A model generated the notes under the pieces. That model saw only the letters and a list, made by a program, of their open reading frames with translations. It did no database searches and had not been told where the DNA came from. A DNA stretch of 64,000 nucleotides from Arcobacter sp. CECT 8986 (GTDB lineage Bacteria > Campylobacterota > Campylobacteria > Campylobacterales > Arcobacteraceae). Position numbers and translations under genes: made by a program. The DNA lies in the NCBI RefSeq assembly GCF_004116725.1, contig NZ_PDKG01000007.1:62001-126000 (forward strand), read 5' to 3'. Shown one piece after another: positions 2,407 to 62,937 of this stretch (position 1 is its first letter; each line of letters opens with the position of its first letter).

Positions 2407-3505
2407 TATAAAAAGATTAAATGCTCTTTTTATAAAAGAAAGCATTCAAATTATCAGAGACCCTAGCTCTATTTTAATCGCAGCAATCTTACCTCTTATC
2501 TTACTTTTTTTAATGGGATATGCAATTTCTTTGGATTCAAAAAATATTCCAGTTGGAATAGTTGTAGAAAAATCTTCAAAATATACACAAAGTTTAGTAA
2601 ATACTTTTAGTGTATCTACTAGTTTTAATGTAAAAGAAGTTGATACAAATAGAGTTCAACTTAATAAATATATAAAACAAGGTAAAATAAAAGCAATTAT
2701 TGTAATTCCTTCTACTTTTTCAAAAGATATAATAAAACAAAATCCAAAAATTCAATTTATAACAGATGGAACAGAGCCTAGTATTGCAGGTTATGTTTAT
2801 AAATATGGTTATAGATTATGGCAAAATTGGTTAATCCAAGAAAAACTAAAATTAAATCCAAAAATTGATATAGAGAGTAGATATTGGTTTAATGCTCCTT
2901 TATTAAGTAGCTATTTTTTATTGCCTGGTTCAATTGCTATAATTCTTACATTAATAGGTACCCTTTTAACTGCTTTAGTAATTGCAAGGGAATGGGAAAG
3001 AGGAACAATGGAAGCAATTATGTCTACACCTGTTACTTCTGCTGAATTAATTATAGGTAAAGTATTGCCCTACTTCTTCTTAGCTTTATTTTCTATGGTT
3101 ATATGTGTATTTATTACTTTAGCATGGTTTCAAATTCCATTTAGAGGCTCATACTTTTTACTTTTTATAACTTCTGCTATTTATCTAATACCATCACTTG
3201 CATTGGGCTTATTAATTTCAACTTTATCAAAAAATCAATTTGTTGCAGCACAAGTTGCACTAATAGTAGGCTTTTTACCAGCAATGTTACTATCTGGGTT
3301 TATATTTCAAATTAGCAGTATGCCAACTTGGCTTCAGTATGTAACGATAATAATACCTGCAAAATATTTTATTCCTATACTGCAAACACTATTTTTAAGT
3401 GGAAATATTTATGAAGTAATTATCCCTAATCTAATTTATATGGCAATATTAGGAATATTGATGTTTATAATAATTATAAAAATAACAAGAAAGAAGATTG
3501 AATAA
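2399..3505 (+). CDS. ABC-2 type exporter permease (first of two)
   Basis: About 368 residues. An N-terminal transmembrane helix (ILIAAILPLILLFLMGYAI) is followed by a soluble periplasmic segment and then five hydrophobic helices, the ABC-2 membrane topology. The conserved coupling segment REWERGTMEAIMSTPVT precedes helix 3. Two starts are possible: ATG at 2393 and ATG at 2399. The AAGG ribosome site at 2388-2391 is too close to 2393 but about 7 bases before 2399, so 2399 is preferred, giving an 8-base overlap with the ATPase gene. It pairs with the following permease to form the membrane channel. It resembles YbhS/YbhR proteins. Confidence 0.9.
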   Translation: MLNIKRLNALFIKESIQIIRDPSSILIAAILPLILLFLMGYAISLDSKNIPVGIVVEKSSKYTQSLVNTFSVSTSFNVKEVDTNRVQLNKYIKQGKIKAIIVIPSTFSKDIIKQNPKIQFITDGTEPSIAGYVYKYGYRLWQNWLIQEKLKLNPKIDIESRYWFNAPLLSSYFLLPGSIAIILTLIGTLLTALVIAREWERGTMEAIMSTPVTSAELIIGKVLPYFFLALFSMVICVFITLAWFQIPFRGSYFLLFITSAIYLIPSLALGLLISTLSKNQFVAAQVALIVGFLPAMLLSGFIFQISSMPTWLQYVTIIIPAKYFIPILQTLFLSGNIYEVIIPNLIYMAILGILMFIIIIKITRKKIE

Positions 3506-4596
3506 TGTTATATCAGTTGCTTGTATTAATAAAAAAAGAGTTCTTAGCAATATGGAGTGATAAACGTTCAAGAATAGTTATTATATCACCTCCTTTACTT
3601 CAGTTACTACTATTTTCTTTTGCTGTGACATTAGAAGTTAAAAATATATCTATTGGTATTTTAGATAGAGATAATAGTGTTCAAAGTGAAGCCATAATTA
3701 GAAAATTGAAATATAGCAATAGATTTACAAATATTATAAGGCTAAATAGTGAAAAAGAATTAACTTCATTAATAGACTCTCAAAAAGTTTTAGCAACTGT
3801 TTATATTCCTCAAAACTTTGAAAAAGAACTTACTTCAAATAAATCTAGTAAAATACAAATAATTGCAGATGGAAGAAAATCAAATAGTGCTCAAATAACA
3901 AATGGATATATAATAAGTGCCATATCAAAAGACTTTTCAGATATAAAATCAAATATTGACTCTATAATAGTAAGAAACTGGTACAATCAAAACCTTGATA
4001 ATTTTTGGTGGATTTTACCTAATTTAGTTGGATTATTATCAATGATTGTCGCAATAATATTAACTTCTTTAAGTGTAGCAAGAGAAAGAGAGTTAGGAAC
4101 ATTTGAACAAACATTAGTTTCCCCTATTCCACCTTTTGTTTTAATACTAGGGAAAATAACACCACCGATGATTATAAGTATGCTTGAAGCTACACTTATT
4201 TTTATTGCTGCAATATATTTATTTGATGTACCATTTAAAGGTTCATTATTTCTACTTTACATTAGTATGTTTGCATTTTTATTTTCTATTGTTGGATTTG
4301 GACTATTTATCTCTTCAATTTCATCTACGCAACAACAAGGTATTTTAGGAGCATTTGTTTTATTAGTTCCATCTGTTTTGATGTCTGGATTTGCAACTCC
4401 TGTTGAAAATATGCCAGAGTGGCTTATACCTTTTACAGATTTAGTATCATTGAAATATTTTCTTATATTATTAAAAGGAATTTTTCTAAAAGATATAAGT
4501 TTTGATATTGCAATTAATTTAATTTGGCCTATGCTTTTATATGGAGTTATTACATTGATTATTGCATCTTGGTTTTTTAGAAAAAAAGTCACATAA
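3505..4596 (+). CDS. ABC-2 type exporter permease (second of two)
   Basis: This 363-residue protein has the same plan as its upstream neighbour: one N-terminal helix (IVIISPPLLQLLLFSFAVTL), a periplasmic loop, then a cluster of hydrophobic helices, with the coupling segment RERELGTFEQTLVSPIPP. Its ATG overlaps the TAA of the previous gene by one base (TAATG), a sign of translational coupling. The two permeases are clearly paralogous and probably act as a heterodimer energised by the double ATPase. The operon ends here; no strong terminator with a T run follows, and a tRNA gene starts about 100 bases on. Confidence 0.9.
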   Translation: MLYQLLVLIKKEFLAIWSDKRSRIVIISPPLLQLLLFSFAVTLEVKNISIGILDRDNSVQSEAIIRKLKYSNRFTNIIRLNSEKELTSLIDSQKVLATVYIPQNFEKELTSNKSSKIQIIADGRKSNSAQITNGYIISAISKDFSDIKSNIDSIIVRNWYNQNLDNFWWILPNLVGLLSMIVAIILTSLSVARERELGTFEQTLVSPIPPFVLILGKITPPMIISMLEATLIFIAAIYLFDVPFKGSLFLLYISMFAFLFSIVGFGLFISSISSTQQQGILGAFVLLVPSVLMSGFATPVENMPEWLIPFTDLVSLKYFLILLKGIFLKDISFDIAINLIWPMLLYGVITLIIASWFFRKKVT

Positions 4597-14070: not shown

Positions 14071-14760
14071 ATGTCAACTGACAATTTATTAAAAGAGTTT
14101 AAAGTATTGCTTGTTGAAGATGAACAGAATATTGCGAAGTTATTAAAAGAAGCAATAGGAGACTATTTTTTTAGTTTTACACTTGCAAAAGATGGTGAAG
14201 AAGCTATAGAAAAAGTTAAAAACGTTAAACCCGATATTATCATAACTGATATAATGATGCCAAAACTAGATGGTTTGGAAATGACAAAAAAAATAAAAGA
14301 AGAGATTGATGAAGATATTCCTGTTATTGTTTTAAGTGCATTCTCTGAAAAAGAGAGATTATTAAATGCAATTGATATAGGTATAACAAAATACTTTATT
14401 AAACCTTTTGATCCAGAAGAAGTTTTAGAGTATTTAAAAACATTAGTAACAAAACTTGATAAAAAAAGAGTATTTAAATTATCAGATACAATTTATTATG
14501 ATAAAAATAAAAATAATCTATTTAAAGATAATAAAATAGTTAATTTAACAAAAAGAGAAAAAAACTTTCTATTTTTATTAATTAAAAATCACCCAAACAT
14601 TGTAGAAGTAGATAAAATAAAAGATACTTTATGGGAAGGAGAGACTTCTTCTGATGAAAGATTAAGAACTTTTATTAAAAGATTTAGAGCTAAAACTTCA
14701 AAAAATTTAGTGAAAAATATATCTGGGCAAGGTTATTTAATTTCTCCACAAAATATTTAA
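14071..14760 (+). CDS. OmpR-family response regulator
   Basis: The 229-residue protein has a receiver domain (about 10-125) with the acidic pair in LVEDEQ, phospho-acceptor Asp60 in IITDIMMPKLDG and Lys in FIKPF, then a winged-helix DNA-binding domain (about 145-228) with LTKREKNFLFLL and SGQGYLI. The ATG at 14071 is chosen because AGGAG lies 6 bases before it; the frame is open further upstream to 14035 without a ribosome site. No kinase gene is adjacent, so it may serve the PAS kinase at 11116 or another. Its 3' end overlaps nrdG by 24 bases tail to tail. Confidence 0.93.
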   Translation: MSTDNLLKEFKVLLVEDEQNIAKLLKEAIGDYFFSFTLAKDGEEAIEKVKNVKPDIIITDIMMPKLDGLEMTKKIKEEIDEDIPVIVLSAFSEKERLLNAIDIGITKYFIKPFDPEEVLEYLKTLVTKLDKKRVFKLSDTIYYDKNKNNLFKDNKIVNLTKREKNFLFLLIKNHPNIVEVDKIKDTLWEGETSSDERLRTFIKRFRAKTSKNLVKNISGQGYLISPQNI

Positions 14761-15411
14761 CTTATTACTTAAAAGCTCTTTATCAATAGAGTTTTTAGGT
14801 TCTGTTAAATTTGCATAGTTATCTACATTTAAAAAGTTTTGAATATAAAAGTTATTTTTGTATCCTAAATCATATAATTGCTCTATCATTTTGTTTAACT
14901 GTTTTTCATCAATTAAATCTTCATGTAAAGTTGTTCTAACTTCAAAATCAAAATCAATTTTAATAAGATATTTTAATGTTTCAAGAAATTTATCATAAAG
15001 TTTTGAATTTGTAATAGCTTGAAAATTTTCTTCTAATGCTTTAAAATCAAGTGCAATATAATCTAAATAATCATTTTGGATCAACTCTTTTACTAGTTGT
15101 AAGTTTGTTCCATTTGTATCTAGTTTTATTTTAAAGCCCATTGATTTTATTTTTTTGCAAATTGGAAGTAAATCGTGCTTAGTTGCTTCACCACCACTTA
15201 AAACTACAGCATCAAGCAACCCTACTCTTTTTTCTAAAAACTCAAATAAGTCTTTTATTGCATAGTTTCCATCTTTACACTCAATAATATTTGTATTATA
15301 GCAGTACTGGCATCTCATATTGCATGATATAAACCATACAATACAAGATAAGTTGTCTTTATAATCTAATGTTGTGAAAGGTGTAATATCATATATTATT
15401 TTTTTCAACAA
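14737..15411 (-). CDS. nrdG: Anaerobic ribonucleotide reductase activating protein (radical SAM)
   Basis: The 224-residue radical SAM enzyme has the cluster motif CNMRCQYC and a SAM-binding segment VVLSGGEATKHDL. It installs the glycyl radical on NrdD. The N-terminus PFTTLDYKDNLSCIVWF is typical of this activase type. The start is a TTG, either 15411 or 15408, preceded by AAAGGG. It overlaps the 53-residue glycyl-radical gene by about 20 bases and, at its other end, the response regulator gene. It is the last gene of the operon nrdD - small radical subunit - nrdG. Confidence 0.9.
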   Translation of the reverse strand: MLKKIIYDITPFTTLDYKDNLSCIVWFISCNMRCQYCYNTNIIECKDGNYAIKDLFEFLEKRVGLLDAVVLSGGEATKHDLLPICKKIKSMGFKIKLDTNGTNLQLVKELIQNDYLDYIALDFKALEENFQAITNSKLYDKFLETLKYLIKIDFDFEVRTTLHEDLIDEKQLNKMIEQLYDLGYKNNFYIQNFLNVDNYANLTEPKNSIDKELLSNKLNILWRN

Positions 15412-15550
15412 ATTTCACCCTTTGTTTATGTTCACCTTTTTTCCCAATATTAAAACTCTCAACAGGTCTGTGGTATCCCATAACTCTAGTGTAAACTACA
15501 CATCTTGTTCTTTTAGACTCTAAATGTTTTGGTATTATGCTGTTTTGCAT
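15389..15550 (-). CDS. Separate glycyl-radical domain of NrdD (53 residues)
   Basis: A minus-strand ORF from ATG 15550 to TGA 15389-15391 encodes a protein whose centre reads RCVVYTRVMGYHRPVESFN, followed by IGKKGEHKQR. This is the C-terminal glycyl-radical segment that normally ends class III ribonucleotide reductases (RVxGYxRP then a GK-rich tail); Gly25 would carry the radical. The neighbouring nrdD product stops just before this part, after its CPKC zinc half-site. The ORF has its own ribosome site, AAGGA at 15557-15561, six bases before the ATG, and overlaps nrdD by 16 bases in the -1 frame. It is thus translated as a separate subunit that NrdG must activate. Confidence 0.88.
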   Translation of the reverse strand: MQNSIIPKHLESKRTRCVVYTRVMGYHRPVESFNIGKKGEHKQRVKFVEKNNI

Positions 15551-17640
15551 TCTTTATCCTTTTTTAAAATTTCTTCATCACATTTTGGACAAAACTCATG
15601 TTCTCCACTAATATATCCATGTTTTGGACAAACTGAGAATACAGGAGTTATTGTAATGTATGGTAATTTGTAATTTGAAATTACATTTTTTATTAATTTT
15701 CTACAAGCTTCTGTTGAACTAATTCTCTCTTTCATATATAAGTGAAGAACTGTTCCACCAGTATATTTACACTGTAATTCATCTTGTAAATTTAACGCCT
15801 CAAATACATCATCTGTAAAATCTGCTGGTAATTGAGTCGAGTTTGTATAATAGATATTTTTATTGAAACCTGCTTGAACAATATCTTTATATCTTTTCTT
15901 ATCCTCTTTAGCAAATCTATATGTTGTACCCTCAGCAGGTGTTGCTTCAAGATTATATAAATTTCCAGTTGTTTCTTGAAAATAAACCATTTTATCTCTC
16001 ATAAAATCTAATAATTCATGAGCAAATTTCATTCCAACATCTGTTGAAATATCTTCTTTTAAATCATAAAAGTTTTTAATCATCTCATTTATACCATTAA
16101 TTCCAATAGTTGAAAAATGATTATTAAAATGAGGTAAATATCTTTTTGTATAAGGGAACAATCCTCTATCATATAAAGTTTGAATAAACTCTCTTTTTTT
16201 CTCAAGAGTTGATTTTGAAAGTTCCATTAACTCATCTAATCTTTCTAATAATGCTTTTTTATCGTTTTTATATAAATATCCCAATCTTGCCATATTGATA
16301 GTAACAACACCAATGCTTCCAGTCATTTCTGCACTACCAAATAAACCACCACCTCTTTTTAGAAGTTCTCTTAAGTCAAGTTGTAATCTACAACACATAC
16401 TTCTAACATGTCCTGGTTTATATGCATTTTCATTTGGAACTAGATTTCCTTTTTCATCTCTTACATATTGACTACCAATAAAGTTTTGAAAATATGATGA
16501 ACCAATTTTTGCACTATTTTCGAACAAAATATCAGTATTTTCTCCATACCAATCAAAATCTTCTGTAATATTTACAGTTGGAATAGGAAAAGTAAAAGGT
16601 TGACCTGTTTTATCACCTTCTGTCATAACTTCATAAAAGGCTTTGTTAATCATATTCATCTGTTTTTGGAAGTCTTTATATGTTAACTCTTCAAAACTTG
16701 AATACCCTTTTTCTTTGATTTTTTCAAGAAGTTCAGCATCTTCGACATCTTTTAAAAGATGTTTTTGTCTTTTTGTAGGAATTTGGTCTTTTAAATCTTC
16801 TGGTACAGTCCAGTCAATTGTAACATTTGTAAAAGGACTTTGTCCCCATCTTGCAGGAACATTTAGATTGTAAATAAAACTTCTAATATTTTTCTTTACT
16901 TCACTATAAGATAATTTATCTTTAAAAACATATGGAGCAAGATAAGTATCAAAAGAAGAGAAAGCTTGAGCACCAGCCCATTCACTTTGTAATATTCCTA
17001 AGAAGTTAGCCATTTGACCTAAAGCTTCTCTAAAATGATTAGGAGCATCACTTTCAACTCTTCCTCTCACTCCGTTAAACCCTTCGTCTAAAAGAACTCG
17101 TAAACTCCAACCTGCACAATAACCACTTAAACAATCTAAATCATGAATGTGATAATCTGCATTTCTGTGAGCATAGCCCTCTTCTTTAGAATATATTTTA
17201 TCAAGCCAATAATTTGCAATTACTTTTCCTGCACTATTGTTGATTAAACCTGCATGAGAATACCCAGTATTTGAGTTTGCATTAATTCTCCAGTCAGTTT
17301 TGTTAATATACTCTTCAATAGTTTGAGTACAATTTATATAAGTAGTATCTTTATCTAAACCTAGGATATGTTCTCTTTGCATTTTATGCATATGTCTATA
17401 TAGCATAAAAGACTTCATAGCTTCAAAATATCCGGCTTTAAATAACTCATTTTCAATTGTATCTTGAATATCTTCAACTGGAATTACTCTTTTTTGTTCT
17501 AATGTTTCAATTACATTAAAAAATACTCTACTGTCATACTTGATATGTACACTTTTAAATGCTTTTTTAATTGCATCTTCTATTTTAAAACTTTGAAATT
17601 CTTTTGTTGTTCCATCTCTTTTTAATACGTTATTTACCAT
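15535..17640 (-). CDS. nrdD: Anaerobic ribonucleoside-triphosphate reductase, catalytic part without glycyl-radical tail
   Basis: The 701-residue protein begins with an ATP cone (about 3-95, VLKRDGTTKEFQSFKIEDA), then the ten-stranded barrel with HIHDLDCLSGYCAGWSL, FSSFDTYLAPY and SPFTNVTIDW, and near the end VCPKHGYISGEHEFCPKC, the zinc-binding region (one of the usual four Cys is His). It then stops with KDKECKTA and lacks the RVxGY radical loop, which is encoded by the next gene. It reduces NTPs to dNTPs without oxygen. The gene diverges from argF; 195 bases separate them. No frameshift is needed to explain the split. Confidence 0.94.
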   Translation of the reverse strand: MVNNVLKRDGTTKEFQSFKIEDAIKKAFKSVHIKYDSRVFFNVIETLEQKRVIPVEDIQDTIENELFKAGYFEAMKSFMLYRHMHKMQREHILGLDKDTTYINCTQTIEEYINKTDWRINANSNTGYSHAGLINNSAGKVIANYWLDKIYSKEEGYAHRNADYHIHDLDCLSGYCAGWSLRVLLDEGFNGVRGRVESDAPNHFREALGQMANFLGILQSEWAGAQAFSSFDTYLAPYVFKDKLSYSEVKKNIRSFIYNLNVPARWGQSPFTNVTIDWTVPEDLKDQIPTKRQKHLLKDVEDAELLEKIKEKGYSSFEELTYKDFQKQMNMINKAFYEVMTEGDKTGQPFTFPIPTVNITEDFDWYGENTDILFENSAKIGSSYFQNFIGSQYVRDEKGNLVPNENAYKPGHVRSMCCRLQLDLRELLKRGGGLFGSAEMTGSIGVVTINMARLGYLYKNDKKALLERLDELMELSKSTLEKKREFIQTLYDRGLFPYTKRYLPHFNNHFSTIGINGINEMIKNFYDLKEDISTDVGMKFAHELLDFMRDKMVYFQETTGNLYNLEATPAEGTTYRFAKEDKKRYKDIVQAGFNKNIYYTNSTQLPADFTDDVFEALNLQDELQCKYTGGTVLHLYMKERISSTEACRKLIKNVISNYKLPYITITPVFSVCPKHGYISGEHEFCPKCDEEILKKDKECKTA

Positions 17641-61803: not shown

Positions 61804-62937
61804 ATGACATCATCACAATTAAATTTATCAAAATTAACGGCTAATGATGATTTAACACCATTGCTTGGTGGTTACTGGCCAGGTATTCAAATATACTATC
61901 CTCCAATTAAGTTCAATCCATTAGATGGAACTTATGAAACAATGGAGCAAGCAAAATTAAGATTACAAAAACATGCTTATAAAACAAAAGCACATACAGT
62001 ACTTTTTGATTTAGAAGATGGATGTAGACAAAAAGCTATGAGTAGAGAACTTTTAATTCAAGAGTTACCAAAATTTCCAGAGAGAAATTTTCAAATAGCA
62101 GTTAGAATAAATCCATTTAGAACAGAAGAGTATGAAGAAGATTTAAAAATGTTAAAACAAATTCATAAATATATTGATGTAATTGTTTTAGCAAAAGCTG
62201 GGGAAGTTTATGGAGATGCGGAGATTAGAGACTTATCTTCTTGGTTAGTTTCAATTAATGCAAACTTAACTATTCAGCCAATTATTGAGCATCCAAAATC
62301 ACTGCAAATTGCTTCTGATTTAATGGATTACTCAACAGTTAAACACGTAGTATTTGGAATCCATGACTTTTCAAAAGCAATGGCATATAAAATTACACCT
62401 GAAGGTTGGATTGATGAGTTAAAAACATTTTTTAATATTCTTACAATGGAAGCAAGAATTAAAGGTGCTGGTGTAATTGGTGGAGTTGAAGTTATGCTTA
62501 CACCAAACTCTTTACCTGATTCATGTTTAGAGAAAAAAGATATTAGAAGATGGTTAGATTTACATGGCGATGATGCAAGTAGACATGTATATTCTCATGC
62601 AAAAAAAGAGTGTGCCATGGGTCTAACAGGAAAACAAGTAATTACACCAAATCATATAAATGTGTGTAAAGTTGCTTTTACTCCAAGTCCAAAAGAGATA
62701 GAGCACGATGTAGCAGTATTAAAAGCAGCGATTGAAGCTGATGCACTATTAAGTGGTGCGATAAGATTTGAAGGTGAGATGTTAGATCCACCAATGTTTG
62801 GAAAAGCTTTACAAAATATCTTAAGAGCGTATGCTTTAAGAAGTTTAAGCACAGAACACCAAGATTTTGCATTAACAGTATTAAATAAAATGCCAATTCA
62901 CACATTTAGAGAAAACTGGCCATATGGTCAAATATAG
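61804..62937 (+). CDS. CitE-like CoA-ester lyase (HpcH/HpaI family)
   Basis: The 377-residue protein has the HpcH/HpaI aldolase pattern with the metal-binding segment VLFDLEDGCR, VRINPF, PIIEHPKSL and VVFGIHDFSKA, then a C-terminal helical tail with GEMLDPPMFGKA. It is longer than citrate lyase beta or malyl-CoA lyase (about 290-320). Such enzymes cleave or form 3-hydroxyacyl-CoA esters such as malyl-, citramalyl- or citryl-CoA. With the CoA ligase gene following after 14 bases, an acid is probably activated to a CoA ester and then cleaved. The exact substrate is open. Confidence 0.85.
   Translation: MTSSQLNLSKLTANDDLTPLLGGYWPGIQIYYPPIKFNPLDGTYETMEQAKLRLQKHAYKTKAHTVLFDLEDGCRQKAMSRELLIQELPKFPERNFQIAVRINPFRTEEYEEDLKMLKQIHKYIDVIVLAKAGEVYGDAEIRDLSSWLVSINANLTIQPIIEHPKSLQIASDLMDYSTVKHVVFGIHDFSKAMAYKITPEGWIDELKTFFNILTMEARIKGAGVIGGVEVMLTPNSLPDSCLEKKDIRRWLDLHGDDASRHVYSHAKKECAMGLTGKQVITPNHINVCKVAFTPSPKEIEHDVAVLKAAIEADALLSGAIRFEGEMLDPPMFGKALQNILRAYALRSLSTEHQDFALTVLNKMPIHTFRENWPYGQI

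Follow-up and report, generated by a model that had tools for sequence, protein, structure and literature searches.

The class III ribonucleotide reductase (RNR) of Arcobacter sp. CECT 8986 very probably carries its glycyl radical on a separate, trans-acting subunit, as judged from sequence. Its genes lie in a stretch of 64,000 nucleotides (positions 62,001 to 126,000 of contig NZ_PDKG01000007.1, hereafter the window), in which nrdD, for the catalytic protein, is followed by a small gene for a glycyl-radical protein (GRD) and by nrdG, for the activase. The parts of this reading that come directly from the sequences are the separate frames, the ribosome sites of the small genes, the action in trans in relatives, the family identity and the conservation of the GRD.

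The nrdD product ends in CPKHGYISGEHEFCPKCDEEILKKDKECKTA, just past the zinc ribbon, and the radical-loop motif VYTRVMGYHRP lies within the small open reading frame (Table 1). The 562 positions of the Pfam NRDD profile are divided between the two products, with positions 2–529 matched in the large protein (538.6 bits, cut-off 26.2; the ATP-cone is matched too) and positions 532–562 in the small one, so that two proteins tile one family. The nrdD product also scores 1104.5 bits against NF006126 (cut-off 548). The NRDD core, the C-terminal zinc ribbon and the adjoining NrdG are those of a class III NrdD, but the radical loop, expected in the same polypeptide, is a separate frame. At E ≤ 0.001 the small protein matched NRDD and no other Pfam family, and a search of PDB sequences with it gave no match at E ≤ 1.

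These results bear out the initial annotation, made from the letters of the window, in which nrdD stops after a zinc half-site without the radical loop, the loop is a separate gene with its own AAGGA ribosome site and a −1-frame overlap of 16 bases with nrdD, and the radical glycine sits on the small protein; the profile comparison with NrdD C-termini that it had proposed places the small protein at the very end of NRDD. A refinement concerns the zinc ribbon, in which the first half-site is C-x-x-H. The overlap with nrdG, put at about 20 bases, is 23 bases if the listed TTG start of nrdG is used, a start that is uncertain. A second complete nrdD, named there as a possible objection, was not found in the genome (2.65 Mb, 36 contigs, completeness 100), which has no NRDD matches besides the nrdD core and the GRD. 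One other RNR large chain, of class I or II, was recognized there by PF02867. The Gly_radical family (PF01228) has no match in the genome, and hence neither pyruvate formate-lyase nor GrcA was found.

Table 1. Features of the nrdD–GRD–nrdG locus in the window, and phage-type neighbours of GRD copies in other genomes
Feature	Position	Strand	Remarks
nrdD core: ATP-cone, catalytic barrel, zinc ribbon	15535–17640	minus	701 residues, without radical loop
Glycyl-radical protein gene (GRD)	15389–15550	minus	53 residues; Pfam NRDD 532–562, 30.3 bits
Expected radical Gly, GRD residue 25	15476–15478	minus	family alignment, residue count
Conserved Cys, GRD residue 17	15500–15502	minus	Cys counts, residue count
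AAGGA ribosome site of GRD gene	15557–15561	minus	7–11 bases before ATG
Overlap of nrdD end and GRD start	15535–15550	minus	16 bases, −1 frame
Zinc ribbon CPKHGYISGEHEFCPKC near nrdD end	15580–15630	minus	C671-x-x-H674 ... C684-x-x-C687
nrdG activase, radical S-adenosylmethionine type, CNMRCQYC	14737–15411	minus	NrdG2 type; TIGR02495, 177.5 bits, cut-off 131.15
Extra GRD copy, G079 (L130)			neighbours: tail chaperone, spanins, holin
Extra GRD copy, G205 (L147)			neighbour: endolysin
Extra GRD copy, G115 (L152)			neighbours: terminase, spanins, endolysin, tail fibre
Extra GRD copy, G348 (L157)			neighbour: terminase
Extra GRD copy, G211 (L146)			neighbour: transposition protein
Broken GRD copy, G126 (L160)			neighbours: head proteins

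Separate and unlinked genes in Campylobacterota

A profile of the small protein was used to search for GRDs in an even sample of 397 genomes of the phylum. NRDD was matched in 207 of these genomes and the small-protein profile in 185. The GRD lies in a frame of at most 129 residues in 182 of the 185 (including the draft genome G354, which has a GRD without an NrdD core) and in a frame of more than 600 residues, that is fused, in three (G065, G141 and G246). Related genomes do show the split, a possibility that the initial annotation had raised.

The loci that were fetched contain 83 distinct split sequences, a non-random sample with many close relatives, and nrdG is downstream of the GRD in 81 of them. 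Relative to nrdD, the GRD is in frame 0, +1 and +2 in 35, 22 and 26 loci, respectively. The distance from the nrdD stop to the GRD start ranges from −31 to +1,587 bases among the 82 loci with a chosen start (27 overlapping, 42 at 0–30, 4 at 31–100 and 9 at more than 100 bases). In 82 of the 83 loci an ATG is preceded by a 4-mer resembling a ribosome site, against 11.3 expected (432 of 3,982 control ATGs). Over a 25-codon core of 74 distinct DNA versions from these split loci, pairwise identity is 0.914, 0.961 and 0.515 at codon positions 1, 2 and 3, and the far greater variability of position 3 argues for strong protein-level selection on the GRD. The same three genes are present on the plasmid pSULKU01 of Sulfuricurvum kujiense.

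In seven genomes, all of one genus (G079, G170, G194, G201, G214, G262 and G368), nrdD lies apart from the GRD by 59–132 kb; for G201 and G262 this distance assumes that the main contig is circular and runs around it. The GRD is directly upstream of nrdG in each (L127, L131, L133, L137, L139, L141 and L143), and no GRD follows the unlinked nrdD (L128, L132, L136, L138, L140, L142 and L144). Five of the seven genomes have no further GRD match, and G079 and G214 have extra copies. Because the two genes are unlinked, the GRD product must act in trans in these genomes, and a fused chain made by recoding is impossible in them.

Between nrdD and the GRD gene, four loci (L163, L159, L150 and L154) encode a protein of ∼110 residues, and three of the four also encode one of ∼160 residues that is NifU-like by eye. 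In L149, from a single genome of genus g24, a gene of 456 residues (2437–3807) parts nrdD from the GRD by 1.6 kb and appears by eye to be a relative of nicotinate phosphoribosyltransferase. The NrdD core is spread over two overlapping frames in L151 (G225) and L162 (G329), where decay, error or a further split are possible; G225 has an intact copy besides. Two genera of the phylum (L003–L019) have instead a distant fused NrdD with 22–24% identity to that of the window.

Other phyla and the tree of NrdD cores

A scan of named genomes matched at least 589 places, of which 80 were kept; together with plasmid loci and further loci these constitute L247–L341. Leaving aside an Actinomyces locus with a fused form and a variant motif (L251), they contain 83 distinct small-gene loci, with 76 split and having nrdD upstream, 2 fused and 5 with no nrdD upstream within the stretch at hand. 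By record title, the split forms include Pseudomonadota, Omnitrophota, Elusimicrobiota and an Opitutaceae bin, and the fused forms are from Cellulomonas and a Bifidobacteriaceae bin. On plasmid pHG1 of Cupriavidus necator, a gene for a 676-residue NrdD is followed after 142 bases by a small gene of 66 residues that overlaps nrdG. A Bradyrhizobium plasmid record has a split nrdD and GRD, a Thiothrix record lists the small gene and nrdG, with the core found upstream, and in the Actinomyces record the GRD match is inside the large gene. In L283 and L300, from high-GC genomes, a long open frame covers the GRD; both were considered as fusions and rejected, the NrdD core being in another frame, and are counted as split. 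The GRD is uncommon in Pseudomonadota, since only 16 of 398 sampled genomes have a match, one being the genome chosen as centre; three of the 16 are in frames of more than 600 residues. A Betaproteobacteria metagenome-assembled genome (G403) has three matches, including the complete locus L286 and the small gene L293, near which no nrdD or nrdG was found.

A tree of 67 NrdD cores, its root placed for drawing only, requires seven changes between split and fused forms, at least five of them on starred branches. Two fused forms, L020 and L021 (one on a long branch), fall inside split Campylobacterota, and the fused L024 is sister to the split L022 (support 100/96). Because fused forms nest among split ones, the simplest reading of the tree suggests that re-fusion has occurred at least twice.

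Prophage and viral copies of the small gene without nrdD

Intact extra GRD copies are present in 11 of the 397 sampled genomes of Campylobacterota (two each in G079, G214 and G348, and one in G115, G175, G205, G211, G213, G235, G261 and G349), and broken-looking copies in four (G091, G104, G126 and G154). The 11 are all among the 182 genomes with a separate GRD, as against none of the 215 others (Fisher p = 1.6e-4, uncorrected for kinship). Phage context was assessed by PHROG matches of neighbour proteins, at loci where neighbours were tested (Table 1). Two genomes give weak evidence of it, G349 having nothing beyond holin-like and hemolysin matches and G175 a match to a family of unknown function; the single neighbour tested in G261 had no PHROG match, and no phage gene was recognized near the copy in G235, whose neighbours were not run against PHROG. 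Where the prophage GRD lies in a lysis cassette, it stands right after a holin-like gene (L130) or right before an endolysin gene (L147 and L152). G348 has two further small genes (L156, 2422–2640; L157, 829–1209) with longer and different N-terminal parts.

In IMG/VR, 130 contigs encode a GRD relative and 80 loci were kept, of which only L178 has an NrdD core within the stretch at hand. When 44 of the 80 viral records were searched whole, 43 had no NrdD core; the exception, G435, is the contig on which L178 lies and is 6.8 kb long. One further match, of 15 bits and to the zinc region, was found in G431, and G430 gave no Pfam match whatever in this search. Among the neighbours of 33 viral loci (132 proteins picked, 116 scanned, 135 families), endolysin, holin, portal and tail families are among the 25 commonest. 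The listed viral copies retain the radical glycine and its context. All four small proteins tested matched phrog_4132, a phage family listed as of unknown function, for which a function is thus suggested.

Structural model and zinc site

In L023 the ATG of the small gene directly follows the nrdD stop, in frame, and this locus was modelled as a read-through chain of 757 residues with the stop read as Gly. The mean predicted local distance difference test score (pLDDT) is 83.7 and the predicted template modelling score is 0.80, with pLDDT values of 90, 92, 82 and 87 for the GRD blocks of residues 701–740. The model aligns with P. copri NrdD (8p2s_B; Z 33.1, root-mean-square deviation 2.6, 555 residues) as far as model residue 746 and chain residue 735, and with T4 NrdD (1h79; Z 30.8) as far as model residue 728 and chain residue 585. 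If the alignment continues ungapped through the last residues, Gly723 of the model corresponds to T4 residue 580, which we take to be the radical glycine. As modelled, the GRD sits where solved NrdD structures have their radical domain. In P. copri NrdD this domain comprises residues 676–739, with Gly711 (eLife 2024, PMC11226230), and another paper describes the NrdD radical domain as flipping out to meet NrdG (Sci Adv 2025, PMC12662201). Having the domain on a separate subunit would take this motion to its limit.

In Campylobacterota, all 83 split loci and all 20 unlinked or orphan copies have a cysteine eight residues before the radical glycine, as do all 86 split loci and all 6 other copies from elsewhere. 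Among viral copies without nrdD, it is found in each of the 63 whose upstream sequence can be read; two viral loci are too short upstream for scoring. The partner NrdD has the zinc pattern CxxH...CxxC in 147 of 147 distinct not-fused tails, counted among those fitting a pattern that allows C or H. Seven fused forms fit that pattern: four have CxxH and the Cys, two have CxxH without the Cys, and one (L020) has CxxC without the Cys. The fused L323 has the Cys and no second CxxC, and in the fused L287 the Cys lies four residues beyond the last zinc Cys. It is possible, as a guess from these patterns, that a zinc ligand is shared between NrdD and the small protein through the conserved Cys and holds the docking.

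Discussion

We propose that the 701-residue NrdD would provide the barrel, the nucleotide sites and the zinc ribbon, and the 53-residue protein the glycyl-radical loop. Made as its own polypeptide, the latter would dock in the barrel, next to the zinc ribbon. NrdG would generate the radical at Gly25 of the small protein, which would hand it to a barrel cysteine in each turnover. The small part might be replaceable once oxygen cleaves it, and phages with the small gene only could conceivably plug its product into the host NrdD. The fullest form of this proposal, a freely exchangeable plug-in radical subunit found in several phyla, replaced after an oxygen cut and used by phages to arm or re-arm the host NrdD, with docking perhaps via a shared zinc site, is tentative, and we rate its chances as somewhat short of even. 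We likewise put below an even chance that exchange is the function under selection and that phages make use of the small part.

Several points weigh against the separate, trans-acting subunit or its wider implications. The two-subunit enzyme is known here from sequences and a model alone, and the seven unlinked cases, being of one genus, may trace to one or two events. The docking is partly imposed, because the model is a read-through chain with fused relatives in the alignment, and its last 17 residues score low (pLDDT 68 and 42). The viral nrdD/GRD pair L178 lacks the otherwise constant Cys. As regards a wide phage role, a search with the GRD of the window through 50,697 records of cultured phages came back empty, and one with a phage-type GRD gave two weak matches. 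Finally, exchange need not be the selected function, because the GRD has nrdD before it and nrdG after it in 81 of 83 split loci and fused relatives exist.

These last features would also fit a permanent two-subunit enzyme, in which the parts bind tightly and are never exchanged and the split is neutral or serves assembly. The genes are mostly adjacent, with overlaps in 27 of the 82 measured loci, fused forms are nested among split ones, and no sign of damage repair was seen. However, the separate state is retained in 182 of 185 genomes, and the carriage of the small gene alone by prophages and viral contigs is hard to explain if a second source of the subunit is unusable. We regard permanent association as a serious contender, if on balance a doubtful one.

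Alternatively, the phage copies might bind host NrdD as decoys or inhibitors, or might be host genes that were captured and serve no use. The 43 viral records without an NrdD core and the broken-looking extra copies are in line with this, as is the position of some copies in lysis cassettes, which are usually expressed late. The retention of the radical glycine with its context, and of the Cys in every readable viral copy without nrdD, speaks against it, and we consider it less likely than not.

Far less probable is recoding, whereby a frameshift or read-through of the nrdD stop would give a full-length NrdD. An A AAA AAG heptamer does lie upstream of the nrdD stop in the window, and the GRD is in frame 0 behind at least one stop in 35 of the 83 split loci. 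However, slipping by −1 at the heptamer gives GGA TAA, a stop ahead of the GRD, all three frames and gaps of up to 1,587 bases are seen, and 82 of 83 split loci have their own start with a ribosome site; as a general mechanism, recoding is ruled out by the unlinked genes. That the small protein, autonomous like GrcA, serves some other glycyl-radical enzyme is scarcely credible in view of its match to NRDD, the lack of a PF01228 match in its own genome, the position of nrdG after it in 81 of 83 split loci and the existence of fused relatives. A sequencing error, which the initial annotation had offered as a refutation, or a decaying pseudogene would account for one isolated overlap and has next to no chance of being right, being rejected by the genome survey, with the same division across one phylum and in others, and by strong protein-level selection.

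Fused class III RNRs (the NrdD proteins of T4, P. copri, S. thermophilus and T. maritima, with NrdG) have by sequence the core, ATP-cone, zinc ribbon and radical loop in common with the split enzyme, and the GRD is modelled in the equivalent place. Here, in contrast, a gene of its own encodes the radical loop, CxxH forms the first zinc half-site where P. copri NrdD has CxxC, and the Cys eight residues before the radical glycine is nearly constant in the separate form. The spare parts of pyruvate formate-lyase, GrcA (YfiD) and T4 Y06I, are likewise small autonomous radical-loop proteins with a phage version known (PMC8683613), and the protein of the window is similarly a stand-alone chain of 53 residues with RVMGYHRP, its own start and a ribosome site. 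The comparison with GrcA in the initial annotation holds as an analogy but fails as to family, the small protein belonging to NRDD and having no match to PF01228, and as to role, since it is the sole loop source found in its genome and not a spare for an intact enzyme.

According to Andorfer et al. 2021 (PMC8683613), YfiD and Y06I are the only validated spare parts, and parts for other glycyl-radical enzymes are considered possible. The GRD would be a candidate spare-part system for a DNA-precursor enzyme, with the part already a separate protein; if true, spare parts among glycyl-radical enzymes would not be confined to pyruvate formate-lyase. The natural unlinked pairs and the phage copies make exchange directly testable. 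RNR chains in pieces are described for the split class II enzyme NrdJa/NrdJb (PMC9669993) and for phage nrdD cut by introns, inteins or fragmentation (PMC3653736, PMC12363816). The breaks in phage nrdD lie within the gene and some are rejoined by splicing, whereas the present break separates the zinc ribbon from the radical loop, and translation of the downstream piece begins at a start of its own. No description of a separate NrdD radical protein was found in the literature searched, subscription papers lying mostly outside it.

Three records that list both genes annotate the large piece as ribonucleoside triphosphate reductase and the small piece as nrdD, and the reductase name on both pieces hides what is probably a two-subunit enzyme. 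Residue 650 of the 676-residue C. necator NrdD is the Gly of ICPTHGYLAGEH, in the zinc ribbon, and the radical-loop motif is in the separate 66-residue protein. Siedow et al. in 1999 are said to have found that G650A inactivates the NrdD of Alcaligenes eutrophus H16, Gly650 being taken as the radical site. If so, this assignment in Cupriavidus may have to be revised. For C. metallidurans, a 2010 genome paper (PMC2864759) lists NrdDG as Rmet_5137 and Rmet_5139, skipping the intermediate number.

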